IMG/VR virus record: IMGVR_UViG_3300027898_000035
Location: 1-25,940 of that record
Length of the DNA stretch: 25,940 nt
Origin: a virus
Strand: one strand, 5' to 3'
Of the stretch, positions 3,201 through 25,290 are shown one piece after another; the stretch's first letter is position 1, and every line of letters begins with the position of its first letter. Made by a program: the position numbers and the translations under genes. A model generated the notes under the pieces. The model did not search any database, was not told the DNA's origin, and saw nothing but the letters and a program-made list of their open reading frames with translations.

Positions 3201-5367
3201 CTGATTGAAAACTAAATAATCCTGGACTTGCATCAGACAGTTTAGCATTCATTAATGCGCTATCATCAATAGTAGGACAAGCATTAAAGATCTTATCTCC
3301 CATATTCTTCATAGCTACATTATCAGCAGCTTGTTGAAATAGAACTTGCTTCTGCTTTAACTCAACCATAGCATCTAACTGATTACCATTTAATCCTTGT
3401 AACTGATTAGTATCATAAGCTACTTTAGCAAACTTAGGGCGCAGTTCTGTAAACTCTGGGTCTTTAGCAATACTAGCTTCTGAACGTAATCCTTTATCTA
3501 CAAGCATCTTATTGTATGCAGTGTTATTACTATCAGTAGCATACAAGTCATCTGCTATATTAGGCGAACGCTGTCCTTCTAAGTAATTAAGTTTTACATC
3601 TGCAATCTTAGCAATAGCTTCATTGCCTTGGTCAATAGGAATAGCATTCTTAATACTAGCTTCCGGTGCAGTCATAGCATTCTGTAGCTGATCTACTACT
3701 TCACCTTTAGAAGTTTCAATAAGCTTTGCTAAGTCTTTACCATTAATTCCAGTAGTAGTACTGCCATCAGGATACTTAATCTTGACAGATGCATAGTCAC
3801 TTAAGTCACTAGCACCACTAGCCATATCAGATTGTAAACGCTGTAATACTGGCAGATCATGAGAGTTAATAACAGTACCAGCAGGTATATCACCTAACAC
3901 ATGCTTAGCCCAGATATAGCGCCCCTCAGCTTGTAAATGACCTTTATCACCAACTAATGCTCCAGCATCCCAATCATCACTAAGACTATGGCCTTGTTCT
4001 TTAACTGCATTAAGCACTGCATCTTTCATACTAACATTAGCATTAGGCTTTACAGTATCGGCAAGGTTAGCTACTAGTGGTTCGCTGTCTAATACATTAC
4101 CTGCATTTTCACCAGTAAGAGTTACAAAGCGATTCTGCAATCCTCTAGCTGCTTCAATATCTTCATCGCTTAATGTACTGAGAGTTGCTTTCATTACACG
4201 ATCTACTTTATTCATAGATGCTAAAGAACTAATCTCAGTAGCATTGGCAATAGAACCCAATAGATCTGTAGCAGGGACATTATGCAAAGCATCAGCAGTC
4301 ATGTTAGCAATAGTAGTATCGCCACTAGTGCTTAAGTTATGGATGCTTGTACGGATTGCATTATTATCTTTTTGAATACCTGCATTATATACTTGCTGAT
4401 TAGTAGTATAATTTTCTGAACCTGGTAATGGCATAGCTCTAGAATCGCGGCTTTCTGCTATTAGCAAGATGCGTTGATCTTCTGGAGTTGCAGTTGCTAT
4501 TTTAGATGATGTGCTACTAAAACCGCGAGTAATTGTAAGTTCTCCATTTACAGCTTTACTGATAGCACTAACAGATTTAACTCCCTCAATAGTTCCACCA
4601 ATAGCACCACCTAAGAAACCACCAAATGCAATATTCTTTGCAATATCATATCCATCTTGATCTTCTAAGATAGGAGACTTAAACATAGTAGCTTGTACCA
4701 TAGTCTCAAATGCAGCAGCTTCTAAAGTATTATTAATTACACCAGCACCCAGAGCTTGTAATGTAGCTTTATTAATCATACCCATAGTACCAGCACTTTG
4801 TGCAATTTCAGAACCTGATAGTGCTACATACTTAGCTGCATCTGGAACTAACAAGCCAGTAGCTTTAGATAGTGTAGTACCTATAACTCCTGACTCACTA
4901 GCACCTTGCAGAACTTTACGACCAACATTCAATAACTTAGTACCAGCTAAACCTGGAATAAAACTAGTCATAACAAACCCTGCTAAGTCAGCAGCTTGTT
5001 TATTACTCTGATAGTAAGTACCTAGATCATCATCTAAAGAACTAATCCATGCACCTGTATCATGAGTACCATCATCTAGACCAGCCCACTTACCAACAGT
5101 AGCGGCGGAGTTATAGATACTATCAGCCCCTGATAACATTGATACTGCCATAAACTTACCAGCATTACCCAGTCTATCAGCCCATGTATCTGGGTCAAAC
5201 CAAGAACCGCCTCCAGTACTTGCAATAGTATGAAGATCACTAGATTGCAAATAGCTAGGAGCAGTTGATGGATTAAAAGCATAGGAGCTATCTACACTAT
5301 CAGTACTACTATTGCCACCAAGACTACCTAACATACTATCGCCGGAACCTGCTAATAAGTTATCCAT
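262..5367 (-). CDS. giant internal virion (ejection-type) protein, 1701 aa
   Basis: Last gene of the late module and by far the largest. Its size, position after the lysis genes and pairing with two further large proteins fit the largest internal virion or DNA-ejection protein of podoviruses, comparable in place and role to T7 gp16 but not visibly homologous. The sequence is mostly alanine-, serine- and asparagine-rich and probably helical. It has glycine-rich, membrane-compatible stretches such as IAFGGFLGGAIGGTIEG (about residue 250) and an SFIPGLAGTKLL segment near residue 135. Near residues 1370-1400, a stretch with RPLAFQGPVGQALGLFQGYQ resembles a segment I recall from other giant phage virion proteins. 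I looked for a lytic transglycosylase Glu-Ser motif and found none. The start ATG has only a weak purine-rich leader (AGAAAG). The role is inferred from context. Confidence 0.6.
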   Translation of the reverse strand: MDNLLAGSGDSMLGSLGGNSSTDSVDSSYAFNPSTAPSYLQSSDLHTIASTGGGSWFDPDTWADRLGNAGKFMAVSMLSGADSIYNSAATVGKWAGLDDGTHDTGAWISSLDDDLGTYYQSNKQAADLAGFVMTSFIPGLAGTKLLNVGRKVLQGASESGVIGTTLSKATGLLVPDAAKYVALSGSEIAQSAGTMGMINKATLQALGAGVINNTLEAAAFETMVQATMFKSPILEDQDGYDIAKNIAFGGFLGGAIGGTIEGVKSVSAISKAVNGELTITRGFSSTSSKIATATPEDQRILLIAESRDSRAMPLPGSENYTTNQQVYNAGIQKDNNAIRTSIHNLSTSGDTTIANMTADALHNVPATDLLGSIANATEISSLASMNKVDRVMKATLSTLSDEDIEAARGLQNRFVTLTGENAGNVLDSEPLVANLADTVKPNANVSMKDAVLNAVKEQGHSLSDDWDAGALVGDKGHLQAEGRYIWAKHVLGDIPAGTVINSHDLPVLQRLQSDMASGASDLSDYASVKIKYPDGSTTTGINGKDLAKLIETSKGEVVDQLQNAMTAPEASIKNAIPIDQGNEAIAKIADVKLNYLEGQRSPNIADDLYATDSNNTAYNKMLVDKGLRSEASIAKDPEFTELRPKFAKVAYDTNQLQGLNGNQLDAMVELKQKQVLFQQAADNVAMKNMGDKIFNACPTIDDSALMNAKLSDASPGLFSFQSGAVGSLGSLVQQVGANVTRPLRQLFTKASEDALNSALLKLGSNQEAAIEFDVLSNKIANTAEQYVQDTKGYIKGGGNNLIAKKYADYYDAVASGSGKTYDIPVLEQGTPISMPVQNQETWDAITAHSSRDYDRLMMTNEANAVLGKTNTVHLNSYEPSLPQNPIFAPIRPNPNDYTHIAFVKDSAVTGSGHTSMIYADSAENLQKLTSLVPTDGTLSVIRKGETEDFFKAQGEYSYDQSLNSNYIDSQLKSNGVASNYFTKTDPQKIINDIMQQHLRADDVAATNLVRLKYQPQFDFLESQAEQMQNLSESKFGVTSGIGTGSKDFSNPYTDFIKSALDISNTSKYPLLQNANRVIDQAVSKAYDTVSSLWQDAKSPADMDRINDTLQKFGIDTAYSNAASDALINHTATKGALSSFVRASNGILINCVMGLDAISGLHRALGSVILRSSVFGNLITGLENGDASIAGKLADLGKIAVPGVDASAGEGALMLSPAKLQANAYQAWWKDITDTIGQDGPLMQQARAEGAVHSNVLSGVQDVMKRLTLKGTEADAELGDATQDAFTMAKALELGKKLSGTTMLDEMNRFVSWHCGKQLTDLGEEAGLLTSAEAQAYRNTLVNQVDGVSTASQRPLAFQGPVGQALGLFQGYQFNMMQQMFKYIGEGAGKDTATLLGLQGTMYGLQGEPLFQAINDHVVGNMSGNKNHTDMYAAAQGILGKTAGDFLMYGVPSNILQTNMYSRGEINPRSVSILPTKIEDIPTVAAYSKLIGSLYDTLGKVAGGGNVWESVLQGLEHNGVSRPLAGLAQTLQTTTGNGVAFSTTSKGTIIGSNDLLSLATLSRLAGAKPLDESIINDTAYRIQSYEAAQKVDMQNLIDTIKTTQIQGQQTDEASLSQFTAKYAALGGKQQNFNQLMMNTMKSANTSAAAKINQVLSNPFNQRMQTIMGGTDPMSSGQAASTGGMISTGMGSTNAVSNIQSQN

Positions 5368-7157: not shown

Positions 7158-8627
7158 TTAAGTACCTCCATATTGACCGGTATTACCACCAGTGTCACTG
7201 TTATCACTACCACCGCCACCAACATTAACATTGATGTTAGTTCCTGGACTACTGCTAGGTGCAGTGTAGTTAGGATTCTGGTAAGGATTGGAAGTAACAT
7301 TATTACCAGTAAAGGTAGGATTAGCATTAGGCATAGTACTTCCTGGAGCTGTAGTATCTCCGGGGCTACTAGTTCTAACCACTGGACTATTAGCAGCATT
7401 AGTAATATTTGCTTGTGTAGCTGTAATCCAACTTTGTTGTTCAGCAGGTGACATACTACCCCATACACTAGGAGGTAATTGGTTATTACCAATCTGAGGA
7501 CTACTACCATCTGGAGCAGTAGCATATTGCTTATCACTAGCAGCCGCAGTACTTACAGCACCAGCAGTACCAGTTTGACTAAAGCCACCAGTAGCAGCAT
7601 TAGTAACTGCAGAAGTATCACTAGTACTAGGAATAGTAAGATCTAAACTACCGCCAGCTGGAGCATTAGTATTAGTAGTACCATTTACTGCATTAGTTAC
7701 AGCAGCAGTATCTGCAATACCATTAGTACCAACAGTACTCATAACTGCCTGTACATTATTAGGTTGTAATGCAGCAGCACTAGTAGGAGCAGGTGAACCA
7801 GCTAAAGCTGAATCTAATGCTACGGGTGTAACGTTATTAGTACTTACATCAGCAGGAGCAGCTACTGGATTAGAGTTACCGTTATTAGTACCAGTGTTAG
7901 TATCTACAGTACCTTCAGTTACAGTATCAGAACGTTTCTTACGTTGGTCATCATTATTAATAGCGTTATCAATAGCAGCAAAAGGGTCATTGCTATTATC
8001 ATTAAGACTATCCATAAACTGATCAGAACTCTTTTGTCTAGCACTAGCTAATGCTGCATCTGTAATTCCTGGAACTGCTGCAGCAACACTATCACTATTA
8101 TCTGACAATAACTTACCTACTTCATTAGCACCAAATGCACTACCGCCTAAACCTAATGCATCACTAAGCATATTACCAGCACCAGTAATAGCGCCATTGG
8201 TAAGTTTGTTAACTAAGCTACCTGCAAGAATAGTACCTAGTGTACCTAATGCAGTACTACCACTAAGCTGTGGAGTGCCAGTAGTTGTAGTAGTACGTGA
8301 GCTACTTAATGCAGCAACGTCAGAGGCAGACTTAGCTAACAATTGATTAGTAAGCATTTCATTAACTGTACTGTTATACATACCAGCAGTCTTTTGACCT
8401 TGTGCAATAGCAGCTAAACCTTGTGCACTACCACTGCCAATAAGATCTTGTTGTAACAATGCTTGCTGTGTAGCTAGTGATACATTGTTAGTTTGTGTTG
8501 TAGTACTACCAGGAGTACCTTTAAATATATTAAGTAATGCTTGTAGACCTGCTGGAGTAGCTAGTGAATTCATTACTGAGTTACTAGCTAAATCTCCGCT
8601 GTCTGTACTAGATGCTGGACCTGGCAT
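7158..8627 (-). CDS. low-complexity Ser/Thr/Asn/Ala-rich virion protein, 489 aa
   Basis: The ATG lies just after the stop of the holin-like gene, with AGG in the overlap. The N-terminal 200 residues alternate small hydrophobic and polar residues, with an amphipathic Gly/Leu-rich segment around LGTLGTILAGSLVNKLTNGAITGAGNML (split here as residues 130-157) that could insert in membranes. Residues about 235-489 are nearly all T, N, S, A, G and P, ending NINVNVGGGGSDNSDTGG, and look disordered. Position as first of three consecutive large proteins before the end of the late module suggests an internal virion protein, like the smallest member of an ejection set. No domain is recognised; the function is inferred from order alone. 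Confidence 0.45.
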   Translation of the reverse strand: MPGPASSTDSGDLASNSVMNSLATPAGLQALLNIFKGTPGSTTTQTNNVSLATQQALLQQDLIGSGSAQGLAAIAQGQKTAGMYNSTVNEMLTNQLLAKSASDVAALSSSRTTTTTGTPQLSGSTALGTLGTILAGSLVNKLTNGAITGAGNMLSDALGLGGSAFGANEVGKLLSDNSDSVAAAVPGITDAALASARQKSSDQFMDSLNDNSNDPFAAIDNAINNDDQRKKRSDTVTEGTVDTNTGTNNGNSNPVAAPADVSTNNVTPVALDSALAGSPAPTSAAALQPNNVQAVMSTVGTNGIADTAAVTNAVNGTTNTNAPAGGSLDLTIPSTSDTSAVTNAATGGFSQTGTAGAVSTAAASDKQYATAPDGSSPQIGNNQLPPSVWGSMSPAEQQSWITATQANITNAANSPVVRTSSPGDTTAPGSTMPNANPTFTGNNVTSNPYQNPNYTAPSSSPGTNINVNVGGGGSDNSDTGGNTGQYGGT

Positions 8628-8629
8628 AA

Positions 8630-9157
8630 TTAACCTCTATTATCTGTAGGAATATTAGGGTCAGCTTGAGCCTTCCCACGGAAGTATGATGCAACACCTA
8701 AGATACCACCAAGCATTAACCATACACTATCTGGTACTGTAGGTACAGGTATCTTAGCTAACGGTAATACAAAGTAGCATCCTAATACCATGATACCAGT
8801 AATAAAGCCAATGAAAGGTCTCCAAGTATATGTAGGCCAATGATCTGCTTTAGCTTCTGCTTGCATAGTAGTATTAACACTAACTACTACTTGTGCGTTT
8901 AATTCTTCTAACTTATAAACACTATCATATCCTAATTGTAGACAGTGCTCTTTATATTCTAACTCTGCTTCCTTAGCTTTCTCTAGTTGAACAGGGTCAC
9001 CAAGTGCATTAGTAAGTGCAGTCTTAACACCTGCAATAGTACTATCTGATATGCCTAACTTACTAGCAATAAAGGTAGCAGCACCTCCACCTAACGGGCC
9101 GCCAAGTGCTGTACCTATGAAAGGTAATGCGGCCTTAATAATATCTAATGGATTCAT
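8630..9157 (-). CDS. holin-like membrane protein (3TM holin family type), 175 aa
   Basis: Resembles the phage/GTA 'holin of 3 TMs' family (PF11351). It has an N-terminal hydrophobic Gly-rich segment (residues about 5-33, IIKAALPFIGTALGG), a charged helix (55-90), the characteristic ADHWPTYTWRPFIGF motif (104-118), and two membrane segments, 114-135 and 144-159. It would sit in the inner membrane and trigger lysis by forming holes that release the endolysin, which has no signal peptide. Its ATG overlaps the TGA of the upstream 80-aa gene (ATGA), so the two are probably translationally coupled. The family match is by motif memory; in some phages this family is only suspected to be the holin. 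Confidence 0.7.
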   Translation of the reverse strand: MNPLDIIKAALPFIGTALGGPLGGGAATFIASKLGISDSTIAGVKTALTNALGDPVQLEKAKEAELEYKEHCLQLGYDSVYKLEELNAQVVVSVNTTMQAEAKADHWPTYTWRPFIGFITGIMVLGCYFVLPLAKIPVPTVPDSVWLMLGGILGVASYFRGKAQADPNIPTDNRG

Positions 9158-15712: not shown

Positions 15713-16936
15713 TTAGCCTACAGCACCAGCTGTCAAGTTATAGATAATAGCATTAGCTGGAGGGTTCTTAACAATAGTAGTTAACTCAGTTGTTAATGTA
15801 CCGCCCAATGCATCAATACCATTATCATCAGCAGCGCCAGGTTCACCGTTAAACTCTTTATATTGAGTTTTACGATCACCCAAATAAGCATTCTTACATG
15901 TAGTAAGATCTACTGCTACTGCCATCTTAGACCATGATGGGTTAGTATTAAACAATGGATGTTCAATTACTCGGAAAGTACCACGAGTTGTTTTGAATGT
16001 AGTGAACTGTAAACCATAAGATGTTTGACCATCTGTCAGGAAGTAAGTACCATTCAAACGACCAATAGTATTAATTACTTTATGAGCTGTACCACCTACA
16101 AACAGTACGCGTTCATTAGCACCTTTAGGATCAGTAGTTTGGTTAAACACTGGATCTAACGCAGTTTCAAACTGTGTATAGTTAGTAGTACCACCAGCAG
16201 TAGTTACGTTAGGTACAGTGTAAATACTTGGATAGTAAGACAAGTTACCAATGATGTTAATCAAACCGTCCATAGTGCGGAATGGTTGACCATTACGTAC
16301 ACCACTAGATTTCTGACCAAAGAACATAGCTTTCTCAATATCAGCAGCATGGAAAGCAGCAGCATCTTGTTTAGATTCTGCAGCATTAGTATCACCGGCA
16401 ATCATCATGGTAGCACGGATAGTATCAGAGATACCCCAAGTGTTACGGAAGATTTGAGTTAAGTTAGTAATACGAACAGGGTTAATATTCAATGCATTAG
16501 GACGAACAGAAGCTTCTTCAAATGCATTACCAACTTGATACAAGTTACCAGATGCTGGAATAGCTTGAGCAGATATTGAACCTAATGCACGAGCTACCTG
16601 AACTTGAGTAGGAGATAAAATACTATTGACAATAATGTTTTCACCAGTAGCATCTACACGCATAATCATACCTGGTAAGATGTTGTTAGTAGTAGTTACT
16701 GTAAGAACAGTATCAGTAGCTAACTGACCAGCAGCAGATACTGTAAGTTGTGGAAACACCATAGTTTTAGTAAAAAAACCATGTTCAGTAGCTACTGCGG
16801 TTTCATCACCACTCATAGCAGTCATACCAAATAATGGTGCAGTACCATTAGGCATTAGTCGAGTAATCATCCCAGCAAATGATTTCTTCGCTAGGTCTTG
16901 GGTAAGAATCCCACTATTAAAAATACCTGTTGACAT
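15713..16936 (-). CDS. major capsid protein (SU10/DUF5309-like), 407 aa
   Basis: Forms the icosahedral head shell. Features resembling the SU10-type major capsid family (DUF5309, HK97 fold) are a central segment with IRATMMIAGDTNAAESKQDA and ADIEKAMFFGQKSS (about 170-210, the spine-helix region), then PFRTMDGLINIIG, and a later KAYLGDRKT-like end region with KMAVAVDLTTCKNAYLG. An N-terminal insert (about 65-125) with VSAAGQLATDTVLTVTT and IMRVDA looks like a small beta domain. The gene lies after the scaffold and possible decoration genes, as expected. AAAGGTG seven bases before the ATG suits strong expression, and the codons look even. The role is secure from place and pattern; the family name is from memory. 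Confidence 0.82.
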   Translation of the reverse strand: MSTGIFNSGILTQDLAKKSFAGMITRLMPNGTAPLFGMTAMSGDETAVATEHGFFTKTMVFPQLTVSAAGQLATDTVLTVTTTNNILPGMIMRVDATGENIIVNSILSPTQVQVARALGSISAQAIPASGNLYQVGNAFEEASVRPNALNINPVRITNLTQIFRNTWGISDTIRATMMIAGDTNAAESKQDAAAFHAADIEKAMFFGQKSSGVRNGQPFRTMDGLINIIGNLSYYPSIYTVPNVTTAGGTTNYTQFETALDPVFNQTTDPKGANERVLFVGGTAHKVINTIGRLNGTYFLTDGQTSYGLQFTTFKTTRGTFRVIEHPLFNTNPSWSKMAVAVDLTTCKNAYLGDRKTQYKEFNGEPGAADDNGIDALGGTLTTELTTIVKNPPANAIIYNLTAGAVG

Positions 16937-21222: not shown

Positions 21223-22866
21223 TTAGAAGGGAGAGTTGTTCTCTGGTATTGTGATGCTATTAGTATTCATCTCATCAATAATATTATCTGATTGTATGAA
21301 CTGTCCGTACTGTGCCATTACTTTAGGAGCGTATGTAAGTAAGTCTAAGATACCATCTGTATTAGTAGTTTTCATACTATTAAAGGTAGTAAGTTGTCCA
21401 TCTGTAAATGGTCTAGCTTTAGGATGAATGATTGTTTCACCAGCTAGTAATTCTTTAAACATAACTAAGATTCGAGAGTTCTTACTCATGTTACCAGAGT
21501 ATATATCTACACAATGTAATCCTGATATACCTAATTGCTGACAGAAGAAATCAAACCAGTATAGTAATGAGTATTGATATGCATTAGCTTCCACTGCTAT
21601 TAGCTTGCAATTCTTTCTCAGAGCTAATGTAAGTGCTGAACGAATAGTATCTCCAGGACTTAAGCTAGCATCAATAACTTCCATTAGTACGGGCTTAGCT
21701 TCTATAACTTCGAAGTATCCAATACTTACAGCATCTGATTTTACTTTATCATTAGAAGGGTCAATAACTATAAAGTTACCAATCGGTATATCATCTTCAC
21801 TAAATGGATATACTGGAATCTTATTAATATCTATCGCGCGATTAATATTAACATCTGGGTCATTAAGCACTTCACTAAAAAAGATTTCTGGGTGACCTGA
21901 TGCTAAGTCATTTTCAAATTCTTTAATAAGTTGTGTGATAGGTTGTAGTTCTTCCCAGAGAGATGTACCGTCTGCTAAAATACCACCAGCAATAAACTTA
22001 GTCCAATTAGGATTAGTCTTTAGTTTACGTAAGATACTATAGGGTGTTGGGTACATATTAGCTAAGAAGATGAACATACATCCAGTAGGATTCTTAGCTT
22101 TCATTGCTGTACCGTACATCCAACGTTCCAAATTATCAGATAACACTTCACTATCTGCTTGCTCACGAGATTGTATATCATCAAATATCATTACATCTGG
22201 GCGAGTGTTCTTAATATTAAGTCCCCGCAAACTAGTACCAGCACCAATACCTGCAAGTATCAGATTCCTTCCACGAAATCCAAATTTCTTCATTTGCAAA
22301 GTATCGCGCTCTATTCCTAATCTCCAATCACCAAACACTGCTTTAATGTTAGGTTCATCCAACATGTCTGTAATATCGGATATGAAGTTCTCTGCTAATG
22401 TTGCAGTGTTCGATATTACCAGAATAAATCTGCGATTAGTAAATAAGATACAGTACATTACAAAGATCTTCATTACTGTAGTCTTAGCAAAGCCACGAGG
22501 TAATCCTAATGCTAACTGTGGGAATGTTCTAGGCTTATTTACATATGCTAGTAACCATTGCCATACAGATAGAAATACTGGTGGAAAGCAAAAGGTAAAT
22601 GCTAGCGGTGCAACTAACCCAGCTAGAAAATCCATACTACCTTTTGCAAGTGCTATAACTTCTGCAACATTAAAGGAACCTTCCGCACTAGTAGGTGCAG
22701 CTATAGGATTACCATTAATATCTTTAGTAGCTAGACTTGCTGCTAACTCCTCCTCTAATGCAAGCTGAGCTAGTCTCTTACTTTCTAGTTCTGCCATTTC
22801 TGCATCTGTCACAGGTATAGCTAACTTATCTTTTTTACCTCCCAGAGTTTCAAACATACTAGGCAT
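21223..22866 (-). CDS. terL: terminase large subunit, 547 aa
   Basis: ATP-driven DNA packaging motor and headful or end-cutting nuclease. The Walker A-like loop is GLPRGFAKTT (121-130), with Arg-Gly in place of the classic spacing, as usual for terminases. Walker B is VMIFDD (225-230), with D229/D230 as Mg and catalytic acids. The C-terminal RNase H-like nuclease contains IVIDPSND (D369), LIAVEANAY (E426) and DGILDLLTYAPK (D504/D508). The N-terminal 60 residues are a charged helix plus linker, perhaps contacting the small subunit. The start ATG overlaps the TAA of the small upstream gene (TAATG), indicating coupling. Length is normal and no key residue is missing. Confidence 0.93.
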   Translation of the reverse strand: MPSMFETLGGKKDKLAIPVTDAEMAELESKRLAQLALEEELAASLATKDINGNPIAAPTSAEGSFNVAEVIALAKGSMDFLAGLVAPLAFTFCFPPVFLSVWQWLLAYVNKPRTFPQLALGLPRGFAKTTVMKIFVMYCILFTNRRFILVISNTATLAENFISDITDMLDEPNIKAVFGDWRLGIERDTLQMKKFGFRGRNLILAGIGAGTSLRGLNIKNTRPDVMIFDDIQSREQADSEVLSDNLERWMYGTAMKAKNPTGCMFIFLANMYPTPYSILRKLKTNPNWTKFIAGGILADGTSLWEELQPITQLIKEFENDLASGHPEIFFSEVLNDPDVNINRAIDINKIPVYPFSEDDIPIGNFIVIDPSNDKVKSDAVSIGYFEVIEAKPVLMEVIDASLSPGDTIRSALTLALRKNCKLIAVEANAYQYSLLYWFDFFCQQLGISGLHCVDIYSGNMSKNSRILVMFKELLAGETIIHPKARPFTDGQLTTFNSMKTTNTDGILDLLTYAPKVMAQYGQFIQSDNIIDEMNTNSITIPENNSPF

Positions 22867-23051
22867 TAGTATACCTCTTTTGTATTAGTGATTCTAACTA
22901 CAGAATTTGCAGTAATGGTAGCTAGCATCTTTCCTAACATTGCAGCTGCTCGTGCCTTGTTAAGTTCCAGTTGTTTCTGTTTTTCTAGAGCTATCTGTTC
23001 TTCCTTAGTCAATGCTAATAGTTCTGATAGCTCCTGCGAGTGCTTGTTCAT
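22866..23051 (-). CDS. small charged helical protein between terminase genes, 61 aa
   Basis: An apparently real small gene. AAGGGGAG lies four bases before the ATG, the start overlaps the end of the small-terminase gene by 47 nt in another frame, and the stop overlaps the large-terminase ATG. The N-terminal 40 residues form an amphipathic charged helix (LLALTKEEQIALEKQKQLEL), followed by a helix and a short beta end (ATITANSVVRITNTKEVY). No family is recognised. Position suggests either a packaging accessory or a short coupling ORF that keeps ribosomes flowing into the large-terminase gene. Confidence 0.6.
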   Translation of the reverse strand: MNKHSQELSELLALTKEEQIALEKQKQLELNKARAAAMLGKMLATITANSVVRITNTKEVY

Positions 23052-23601
23052 TGCGCTCCCCTTCTTTAAGTTTAGCTGCTTCCAGCATATTACTAGATTG
23101 TATTGTTACTAGAGTTTGTTGTTCACCATTATCTACACCAACTGATACTACCTGATTGTTTGCATTAACTGCAAATCTTTGAGTAATTGTATTAGGTAAT
23201 GTTAGGTTCACGATAGTAGCATGTTGCTGAGCTTGCTCTGGCGCACTAGAGCCACGACGCTTTGCTGCATTGATTACACTAACAGCTTTCAGTATTTCCA
23301 TTGGCCGCAACATCATTGGAATTACAGTCTTTAGATTACCTAGTAACTTAGCTTCCATTTCATCATAGGTATTATCTATCTCATTGTGCTTCTGTAAGTT
23401 ATTAAACCGTAACTCTGCTACTTTAGAAGCAAACCAATCCTGCGACATTAGTTGACTAATGCGACTGGCACTAACTCCACATGCACTAGCTACTGTTTCC
23501 GCATTATATCCATTCCCTAGAAGTTTCATAGCCTTTTCCGCGGTACTATCCATTGATAGCATCTCACTAGTACTATCTTCTAAACTGTTCTTACCTATCA
23601 T
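23005..23601 (-). CDS. terS: terminase small subunit, 198 aa
   Basis: First gene of the late module and directly upstream of the large terminase. Residues about 24-57 (KAMKLLGNGYNAETVASACG, then VSASRISQLMSQDWF) form a helix-turn-helix of the type small terminases use to bind the packaging site. A helical oligomerisation region follows (about 58-130, with KHNEIDNTYDEMEAKLLGNL), then a beta-rich and acidic C-terminus that may contact the large subunit. It recognises phage DNA and regulates the motor. AGGAGG lies six bases before the ATG at 23601. A transcription regulator is a less likely reading because of the neighbours. Confidence 0.8.
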   Translation of the reverse strand: MIGKNSLEDSTSEMLSMDSTAEKAMKLLGNGYNAETVASACGVSASRISQLMSQDWFASKVAELRFNNLQKHNEIDNTYDEMEAKLLGNLKTVIPMMLRPMEILKAVSVINAAKRRGSSAPEQAQQHATIVNLTLPNTITQRFAVNANNQVVSVGVDNGEQQTLVTIQSSNMLEAAKLKEGERNEQALAGAIRTISID

Positions 23602-23678: not shown

Positions 23679-23833
23679 GCTTTTGCCTAGCCCTTAATTT
23701 ACCGCACCTTATAACTAGTAGCTAATAGTGATCGAGTGTGAAAAAAGTTTAGTAAAAATATGTGAGTGCTTTAGGAAAGTAAATACGCACAGAGTAAAAA
23801 GGCCCTTACCCACCTCCATCAATTCAATCCCTG

Positions 23834-24006: not shown

Positions 24007-24058
24007 GTAACTTCCAGTGAGGTTATGACGAGCTAGAACTTTTCACTAGGTAACTTCC
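24007..24058. repeat. 9-bp direct repeat flanking the operator array
   Basis: GTAACTTCC occurs at 24007-24015 and again at 24050-24058, 43 bp apart. The second copy ends three bases before the first TGACA palindrome. It may be a second binding site for a regulator. Confidence 0.5.
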
Positions 24059-24061
24059 TAT

Positions 24062-24147
24062 TGACACTATCTGTTAGTAACTGACAATAATTGGCATGAT
24101 AAAATAATAAGGTGACAGAATATGTCAGAATGTGACAAAAATTGTCA
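24062..24147. promoter_or_regulatory. array of four TGACA-N5-TGTCA palindromes (operators or iterons)
   Basis: Four 15-bp elements: TGACA-CTATC-TGTTA (24062-24076), TGACA-ATAAT-TGGCA (24082-24096), TGACA-GAATA-TGTCA (24113-24127) and TGACA-AAAAT-TGTCA (24133-24147). The last two are perfect, the first two differ by one base in the right half. Starts are 20, 31 and 20 bp apart, close to two, three and two helical turns. The centre (24097-24112) is A+T-rich. A TTGACA at 24061 overlaps the first element and, with AATAAT at 24086, could form a weak promoter (19-bp spacer) that a bound protein would block. The binding protein is unknown. Confidence 0.8.
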
Positions 24148-24184
24148 GTGATTGGATAGTTTTAGTATCGTTTTAGGGCAATAA

Positions 24185-24213
24185 TTAGCTGGCATGGGAT
24201 ATGCTTATATAAT
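24185..24213 (+). promoter_or_regulatory. sigma70-like promoter for rightward genes
   Basis: A perfect -10 box TATAAT at 24208-24213, with a poor -35 (TTAGCT at 24185-24190) at 17-bp spacing. Expected start is near 24220, giving a leader of about 55 nt before the 71-aa gene. The weak -35 and the palindrome array ending 37 bp upstream suggest that a regulator helps or blocks RNA polymerase. Confidence 0.6.
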
Positions 24214-24273
24214 AGGGCAAGGCAGTAGTTCAGAAGGTAAGTTCAGATCAGATAACTAACAGGGGAATATATT

Positions 24274-24489
24274 ATGAGCAATAGCAAAGTAATTACATTA
24301 GTTAGCAGTAAATTAGTAAGCAATGGTCAATTAGTAGCTGGCGACACTAGCAGATATAGTAGTATGTTTTCTGCTAGCATGGTTACTAGTAACAGTAGCT
24401 ACAAGGATAGACTTGCTGATGTAGCGTTATTCACTAAGCATAATCTGGTAACTAATGAAGGTATCAGCGAGTTGAAATTGATTGATTAA
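24274..24489 (+). CDS. unknown small protein, 71 aa, first rightward gene
   Basis: The ATG has AGGGG eight bases upstream and a clear -10 box before it, so expression is likely. The protein is rich in Ser, Val, Leu and Asn (ITLVSSKLVSNGQLVAGDTS, RYSSMFSASMVTSNSS) and has a more charged C-terminal half (YKDRLADVALFTKHNLVTNE). No membrane span, Cys pair, helix-turn-helix or known family is seen. As the first gene from the divergent region it fits an early phage protein, such as a host-takeover factor, but that is only a guess from position. Confidence 0.65.
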   Translation: MSNSKVITLVSSKLVSNGQLVAGDTSRYSSMFSASMVTSNSSYKDRLADVALFTKHNLVTNEGISELKLID

Positions 24490-24609: not shown

Positions 24610-25290
24610 ATGTCAGTTATATCTAATCGTCACACAGTAGTAAATTATGTATCACAAGGCGCTGGCGCTACTAAAGCTCTTACAGGTCAACGGTTAGTTA
24701 CCGCCTGTTACCGTAGTAAAGAAAATGGCGCTAATCGTACTAACCGCGCTGCCAGTATTCCAATGCTGTCAATGGTTGAGATTGATTCTAAAATGTCAGT
24801 ACTGAAGCCACTGTTAGTTGAGTATCTGGAATCGGTGCAAGACAAGATTTTTAAATCATTGCTCGATGCTAACGGAATCGACGGTGTAGTTAATGAAATT
24901 GCTGATGAGAGTATCAACTTAGATAGTTGTATTGCTTACTTGCAGGATAGTGCAAGCGGTGAGAGGTTAACTAAGGAAAGCATTGGTCAATGGTTCACTG
25001 ATAGCGGTTTGGAAGATCAACTGATGCTATCGTTATCGACTAAGTTAGGTATCAGTGAAAATCCAACAGATGCCGAAAGCAAAAAAGTTGAGCTTATTAC
25101 TAATGAATATAAAGCAAAACTATCAGCAATGGCAGGCGGTAAAACTAGTTACAATGAAAAGATGGCAACTAGCTTACAGAAAGCATTGGCATTGATTCCT
25201 GAGGATAGTCTAGCTATTAAATTCAATTTGCGATTGGCTAATATGATCGCAGCTAGCAAAGAAAAGGCAGATTTGTTTGATCTGCTGTAA
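24610..25290 (+). CDS. unknown soluble protein, 226 aa
   Basis: AGAGGAAA lies just before the ATG. The first 50 residues are basic (RLVTACYRSKENGANRTNRA), followed by a mostly helical, acidic body: LKPLLVEYLESVQDKIFKSL (about 65-84), INLDSCIAYLQDSASGERLT, and a C-terminal helix with MATSLQKALALIPEDSLAIK and FNLRLANMIAASKEKADLFD. No membrane span or catalytic motif is visible and I do not recognise the family. The basic head and acidic, helical tail would suit a nucleic-acid- or polymerase-binding early protein, but this is inference. A stable stem-loop follows 33 bp after the stop. Confidence 0.75.
   Translation: MSVISNRHTVVNYVSQGAGATKALTGQRLVTACYRSKENGANRTNRAASIPMLSMVEIDSKMSVLKPLLVEYLESVQDKIFKSLLDANGIDGVVNEIADESINLDSCIAYLQDSASGERLTKESIGQWFTDSGLEDQLMLSLSTKLGISENPTDAESKKVELITNEYKAKLSAMAGGKTSYNEKMATSLQKALALIPEDSLAIKFNLRLANMIAASKEKADLFDLL

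Follow-up and report, generated by a model that had tools for sequence, protein, structure and literature searches.

A predicted σ54 promoter with a candidate PilR enhancer array between the late and early genes of a phage

Which protein reads the four palindromes that separate the late and early genes of this virus, and what does it do there? The window, by which we mean the whole 25.9-kb virus record analysed, has packaging and structural genes running leftward from a probable small terminase gene. Its early side, starting at position 24274, has a few genes oriented rightward. The palindromes occupy the gap between the two sides. The features of this region are listed below. Palindrome centres are given with respect to the predicted transcription start.

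21223–22866: large terminase gene, after the small terminase on the late side
23005–23601, minus strand: probable small terminase gene (198 aa), on the divergent late side
24055–24265, plus strand: control cassette (array plus promoter), replaced by unrelated sequence in the otherwise near-identical strain L005
24062–24076, plus strand: palindrome 1, TGACACTATCTGTTA; one mismatch in the right half; centre at about −147
24082–24096, plus strand: palindrome 2, TGACAATAATTGGCA; one mismatch in the right half; centre at about −127
24113–24127, plus strand: palindrome 3, TGACAGAATATGTCA; perfect; centre at about −96
24133–24147, plus strand: palindrome 4, TGACAAAAATTGTCA; perfect; centre at about −76
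24189–24205, plus strand: predicted σ54 promoter, CTGGCATGGGATATGCT (GG-N10-GC); predicted start at about 24216
24274–24489, plus strand: first gene of the early side (71 aa), without a family match
24610–25290, plus strand: early gene (226 aa); no Pfam match

An earlier note on this DNA described four TGACA-N5-TGTCA palindromes whose starts are separated by 20, 31 and 20 bp, and reading the sequence confirmed this. The cluster at 24062–24147 is far above chance. None of 300 dinucleotide shuffles of the window gave a comparable cluster of four; 293 gave two palindromes, six gave three and one gave a single palindrome. This control was free of any chosen motif. It counted 15-bp palindromes sharing one motif, with 5-bp arms, a 5-bp spacer and no more than one mismatch, within 90 bp. 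Nor is the motif scattered at random, since the 25.9 kb contain a single further site with one mismatch or fewer, at 16931 (TGACATAATAAGTCA). The start offsets of 20, 51 and 71 bp correspond to 1.9, 4.9 and 6.8 turns at 10.5 bp per turn. Placement of all sites on one helical face, as proposed earlier, is thus a fair description, although the phasing is inexact. Readings of the array as GlrR-type TGTC-N10-GACA sites or as direct repeats were discarded; TGACA-N5-TGTCA alone holds its spacing across relatives.

A weighted consensus scan of both strands for −24/−12 elements gave its top score in the window at 24189–24205. The score is good but imperfect (0.88), and the element has the GG-N10-GC arrangement with the TGGCAC/TTGC core of a σ54 promoter. 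It follows the array, precedes the first early gene and reads towards the early side. With centres at −76 to −147, the palindromes fall within the distance at which enhancers of σ54 promoters are expected (roughly 70–170 bp upstream). The equivalent position also ranks first in L007, L008, L011 and L016, and the consensus is perfect in the last three. In L007 and L008 the palindromes are at −121 to −165 from the predicted promoter, and a perfect IHF consensus separates array from promoter. IHF sites are common companions of σ54 promoters. Among terminase relatives, strong σ54 sites (here a score of 0.93 or more) in the control gap point towards the early genes at ten loci and towards the late genes at one; control stretches of equal length contained none. 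It is very probable that the array is the enhancer of the σ54 promoter and is bound by a host activator. The earlier note is supported in proposing that a regulator binds cooperatively in this divergent region, with the array facing the early side.

Palindromes and σ54 promoter are both kept in relatives L007, L008, L050, L060, L025 and L016. In L007 the palindromes are at 4919, 4942 and 4963, with spacings of 23 and 21 bp. The grounds for refutation set out in the earlier note thus do not apply: the palindrome unit with its 5-bp spacer is found again in the same place, whereas the exact 20/31/20 pattern is not kept. The module is patchy in the window's own lineage, where 7 of 81 terminase relatives have it by strict criteria. 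A natural replacement is seen in L005, which matches the window at 98% identity along 4.8 kb. The match breaks at 24054 and resumes at 24266. The intervening sequence of L005 has GTTAC/CTTAC repeats spaced by 10 bp, TATAAT-like sequences and a short ORF. Because the swap removes exactly the array plus the promoter, it suggests that the two belong together as one cassette, and that phages of this lineage can also manage under a different control.

The GTTAC/CTTAC repeats are at about 325–392 of L005, and similar GTAACA repeats occur in L400 upstream of a perfect σ54 consensus. Both sets of repeats are perhaps sites of another regulator. Two further palindromes were noticed in this family. The same divergent control region of terminase relatives can carry a Fur-box-like palindrome of the TGAGAATCATTCTCA type, which is absent from the window. 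It is found in L007 (5009–5023) and in L018, L022, L025, L027, L407, L414 and L417, and was counted in 18 of 81 terminase relatives with up to one mismatch, or 30 of 81 with up to two. Phages with this palindrome may also read the host iron regulator. Upstream of strong σ54 sites in both L016 (at about 122–143) and the control region of L394 there is a variant palindrome, with the sequence TGACGCAAATTGCGTCA or one close to it (TGACG-N7-CGTCA). It perhaps serves a different activator.

On the early side, homologues of the 226-aa protein are encoded by the first long gene in relatives, and the further module carriers L050, L060 and L290 have homologues of this gene too. An invariant Trp-Phe and a GGRLTKE-like motif are kept in relatives of the protein encoded at 24610–25290. 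Its family gave no Pfam match; one homologue has a weak match to a PHROG of unknown function. On the late side, a conserved element at 23745–23822 (minus strand) precedes the small terminase gene in the window and its relatives, and also in phage 119X. It has a G-rich run, then CCTTTTTA and, further on, CTAAACTTTTT. Both ends of the Tiera genome, as deposited, lie at this element, so it may be a packaging terminus or a late promoter.

The identity of the host activator was approached through other occurrences of the motif. Exact tandem pairs of TGACA-N5-TGTCA were collected from IMG/VR and GTDB genomes, giving at least 128 viral and at least 139 bacterial pairs. Among the matches listed, a strong σ54 site lay within 170 bp of 33 of the 128 viral pairs (0.9% for random positions) and of 24 of the 139 bacterial pairs (0.5% for random positions). 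A type IV pilin gene was present in 16 of the 23 bacterial contigs listed with tandem palindromes and a strong σ54 site, and the remaining seven had no pilin nearby. Exact pairs are rare; among the 369 genomes scanned from one bacterial class, three had them and none had the reversed-pattern control. Scans for exact pairs therefore see only the strongest examples.

A reverse test started from pilin genes rather than from the motif, using PF00114 genes in 114 genomes of one class. Of 27 pilin genes, 15 had the palindrome within 350 bp upstream; shuffles averaged 0.2 and never exceeded 2. Other spacers were found upstream of 0–2 of the 27 genes; spacer 4, for instance, occurred at two and spacer 5 at 15. 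Where pilin-upstream palindromes were paired at 20–23 bp, eight of nine pairs were exactly 20 bp apart, a spacing found twice in the window. The window array thus has both the motif and the spacing of the pilin promoters, and the 15-mer of palindrome 4 is itself present at several of them. The PEP-CTERM regulator PrsR was considered as owner of the motif and rejected, since it was pilin genes that followed the bacterial sites. PilR, acting with σ54, is an established activator of pilin genes (PMC6058289, PMC3262810, PMC2725144). Response regulators adjoin such pilins in L236, L265 and L280; they are NtrC-family by model and PilR by position only, as NCBIfam has no PilR model. The same palindrome and spacer precede σ54 promoters of bacterial pilin genes, which indicates a host activator. 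From the pilin association and the neighbouring NtrC-family regulators, that activator is probably PilR. TGACA-N5-TGTCA is, in turn, a clear candidate PilR site for many pilin promoters.

The module extends well beyond the lineage of the window. Among the matches listed, 32 further viral contigs from several unrelated lineages have tandem sites and a strong σ54 site, and none of these 32 has a pilin gene near them. One palindrome combined with a strict −24/−12 element was found in 31 viral stretches, against two when the half-sites were scrambled. Ten large proteins taken from ten such contigs included several different terminases, a portal protein, a head-tail adaptor and a DNA polymerase. 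Since these hallmark proteins differ, the module occurs in unrelated phages. In one unrelated contig, L109, the first long gene after a palindrome array and a perfect σ54 site encodes a 451-aa reverse-transcriptase-like protein (7437–8789). The module was missing at the examined place in two isolated phages, which were reached through a relative of a downstream gene; a second protein query for isolated phages matched cyanophages only.

Four other explanations of the array have to be weighed. The binder could be another host NtrC-family activator that shares TGACA-N5-TGTCA, such as a surface- or stress-responsive PilR paralogue, working on the same σ54 enhancer. The seven of 23 listed bacterial contigs without a nearby pilin would fit such a protein, as would the assignment of several pilin-adjacent activators to the NtrC family by model only. 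In the unbiased draw, however, pilin genes show an excess of the motif, with the spacer and pair spacing of the window, and we consider a different activator unlikely. It is also conceivable that the sites are decoys that bind PilR tightly and titrate it. Less pilin would then be made and other pilus-dependent phages kept from superinfecting, and early transcription would be of secondary importance. With several sites in each genome, replicating phage DNA would presumably draw PilR away from the pilin promoter. A decoy would have no use for the correctly placed σ54 promoter that faces the early genes, and as the main function it is highly improbable; decoy and early-promoter roles are not exclusive.

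The earlier note took the binder to be a phage regulator or replication initiator, and the array could accordingly be read as origin iterons, or as operators for a repressor or switch protein of the phage's own. The divergent intergenic position, the A+T-rich surroundings and the change in GC skew speak for such a reading. The skew does flip here, with its cumulative minimum at 23–24 kb, but this is no specific sign of an origin because the flip coincides with the change of coding strand. The window and seven related viral records contain no Sigma54_activat domain above the cut-off, so a phage-encoded activator was dropped as a candidate. No obvious repressor was found in the ORF lists of the L007 genome, from which small regulators could escape, the window genome itself being incomplete. 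The motif moreover recurs at bacterial pilin promoters, and beside σ54 promoters in unrelated phages. The phage-protein reading is disfavoured by these observations, and we give an operator or origin role hardly any credence. The statement that no known operator matches was partly right. The nearest described motif is the box of CopR/CusR-type copper-responsive regulators, TGACA-N4-TGTCA. These are OmpR-type regulators, which do not need σ54. Published boxes have the identical half-site (PMC12428095, PMC11195947), but their spacer is 4 bp and they have no σ54 promoter (PMC12428095). All four window sites, like those of L007, have a 5-bp spacer, and spacer 4 is the minor class at pilin promoters (above). 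The chance that the array is a copper box is negligible.

PilR control of a σ54 early promoter can be compared with known systems. The window resembles the pilA promoter (PilS/PilR, σ54) in the TGACA-N5-TGTCA motif, the 5-bp spacer, pairs 20 bp apart and palindromes about 80–170 bp upstream of a −24/−12 promoter. Unlike pilA, the window module would drive phage early genes, and it sits in a phage divergent control region. The nearest published precedent is the control of pili- and flagellotropic phages of Alphaproteobacteria by CtrA, established by gel shift and reporter assays (PMC9437464). There, as proposed for the window, clustered sites of a host appendage regulator lie in a phage promoter, and several lineages have arrived at this independently; the 32 listed viral contigs described above repeat that distribution. 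The window differs in its regulator and in using an enhancer with σ54, for which opening would be driven by ATP. The CtrA case is experimental, whereas ours is known from sequence. We found no account of PilR/σ54 control of phage early genes in the open-access literature, most subscription papers lying outside this search. The Fredfastierviridae Pseudomonas phages PaP2 and 119X share with the window a terminase of about 34% identity, the gene order and a divergent control region; no strong σ54 site was found in the control region of either.

We therefore return to PilR. The sequence itself shows the array and the promoter, how they are arranged, that relatives keep them and that bacterial pilin genes are preceded by the same pairing. 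On this basis it is likely that a PilR enhancer array drives the σ54 promoter of the early genes. In the mechanism that we propose, the promoter at 24189–24205 would transcribe the phage early genes rightward. Host RNA polymerase with σ54 would wait there as a closed complex. PilR dimers would occupy the four palindromes, on roughly one helical face and about 76–147 bp upstream. Oligomerised PilR would reach the promoter by DNA looping and open the closed complex using ATP, as at a pilin gene. The early genes would then be transcribed according to the pilus-control state of the host. We infer here that the binder is PilR and not another enhancer-binding protein, that PilR activates, and that the host has type IV pili.

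Phage early genes usually use σ70 promoters, which fire at once. A σ54 early promoter needs an activated host enhancer-binding protein and so places a decision at the very start of infection. With PilR as that activator, the phage would be reading the pilus-control signal of its host. The module may confine early expression to cells in which PilR is active, and would so couple infection to pilus production. There is perhaps an even chance of a broader pattern, in which many unrelated phages of pilus-bearing bacteria independently adopted the PilS/PilR-σ54 pilin switch for their early genes. Infection would then proceed only, or best, when the cell makes pili and its neighbours bear the receptor, and close relatives would swap the cassette for other control modules. 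PilR control of the window's early genes, if borne out, would join the phages that use CtrA and turn eavesdropping on appendage regulators into a strategy of phages more generally.
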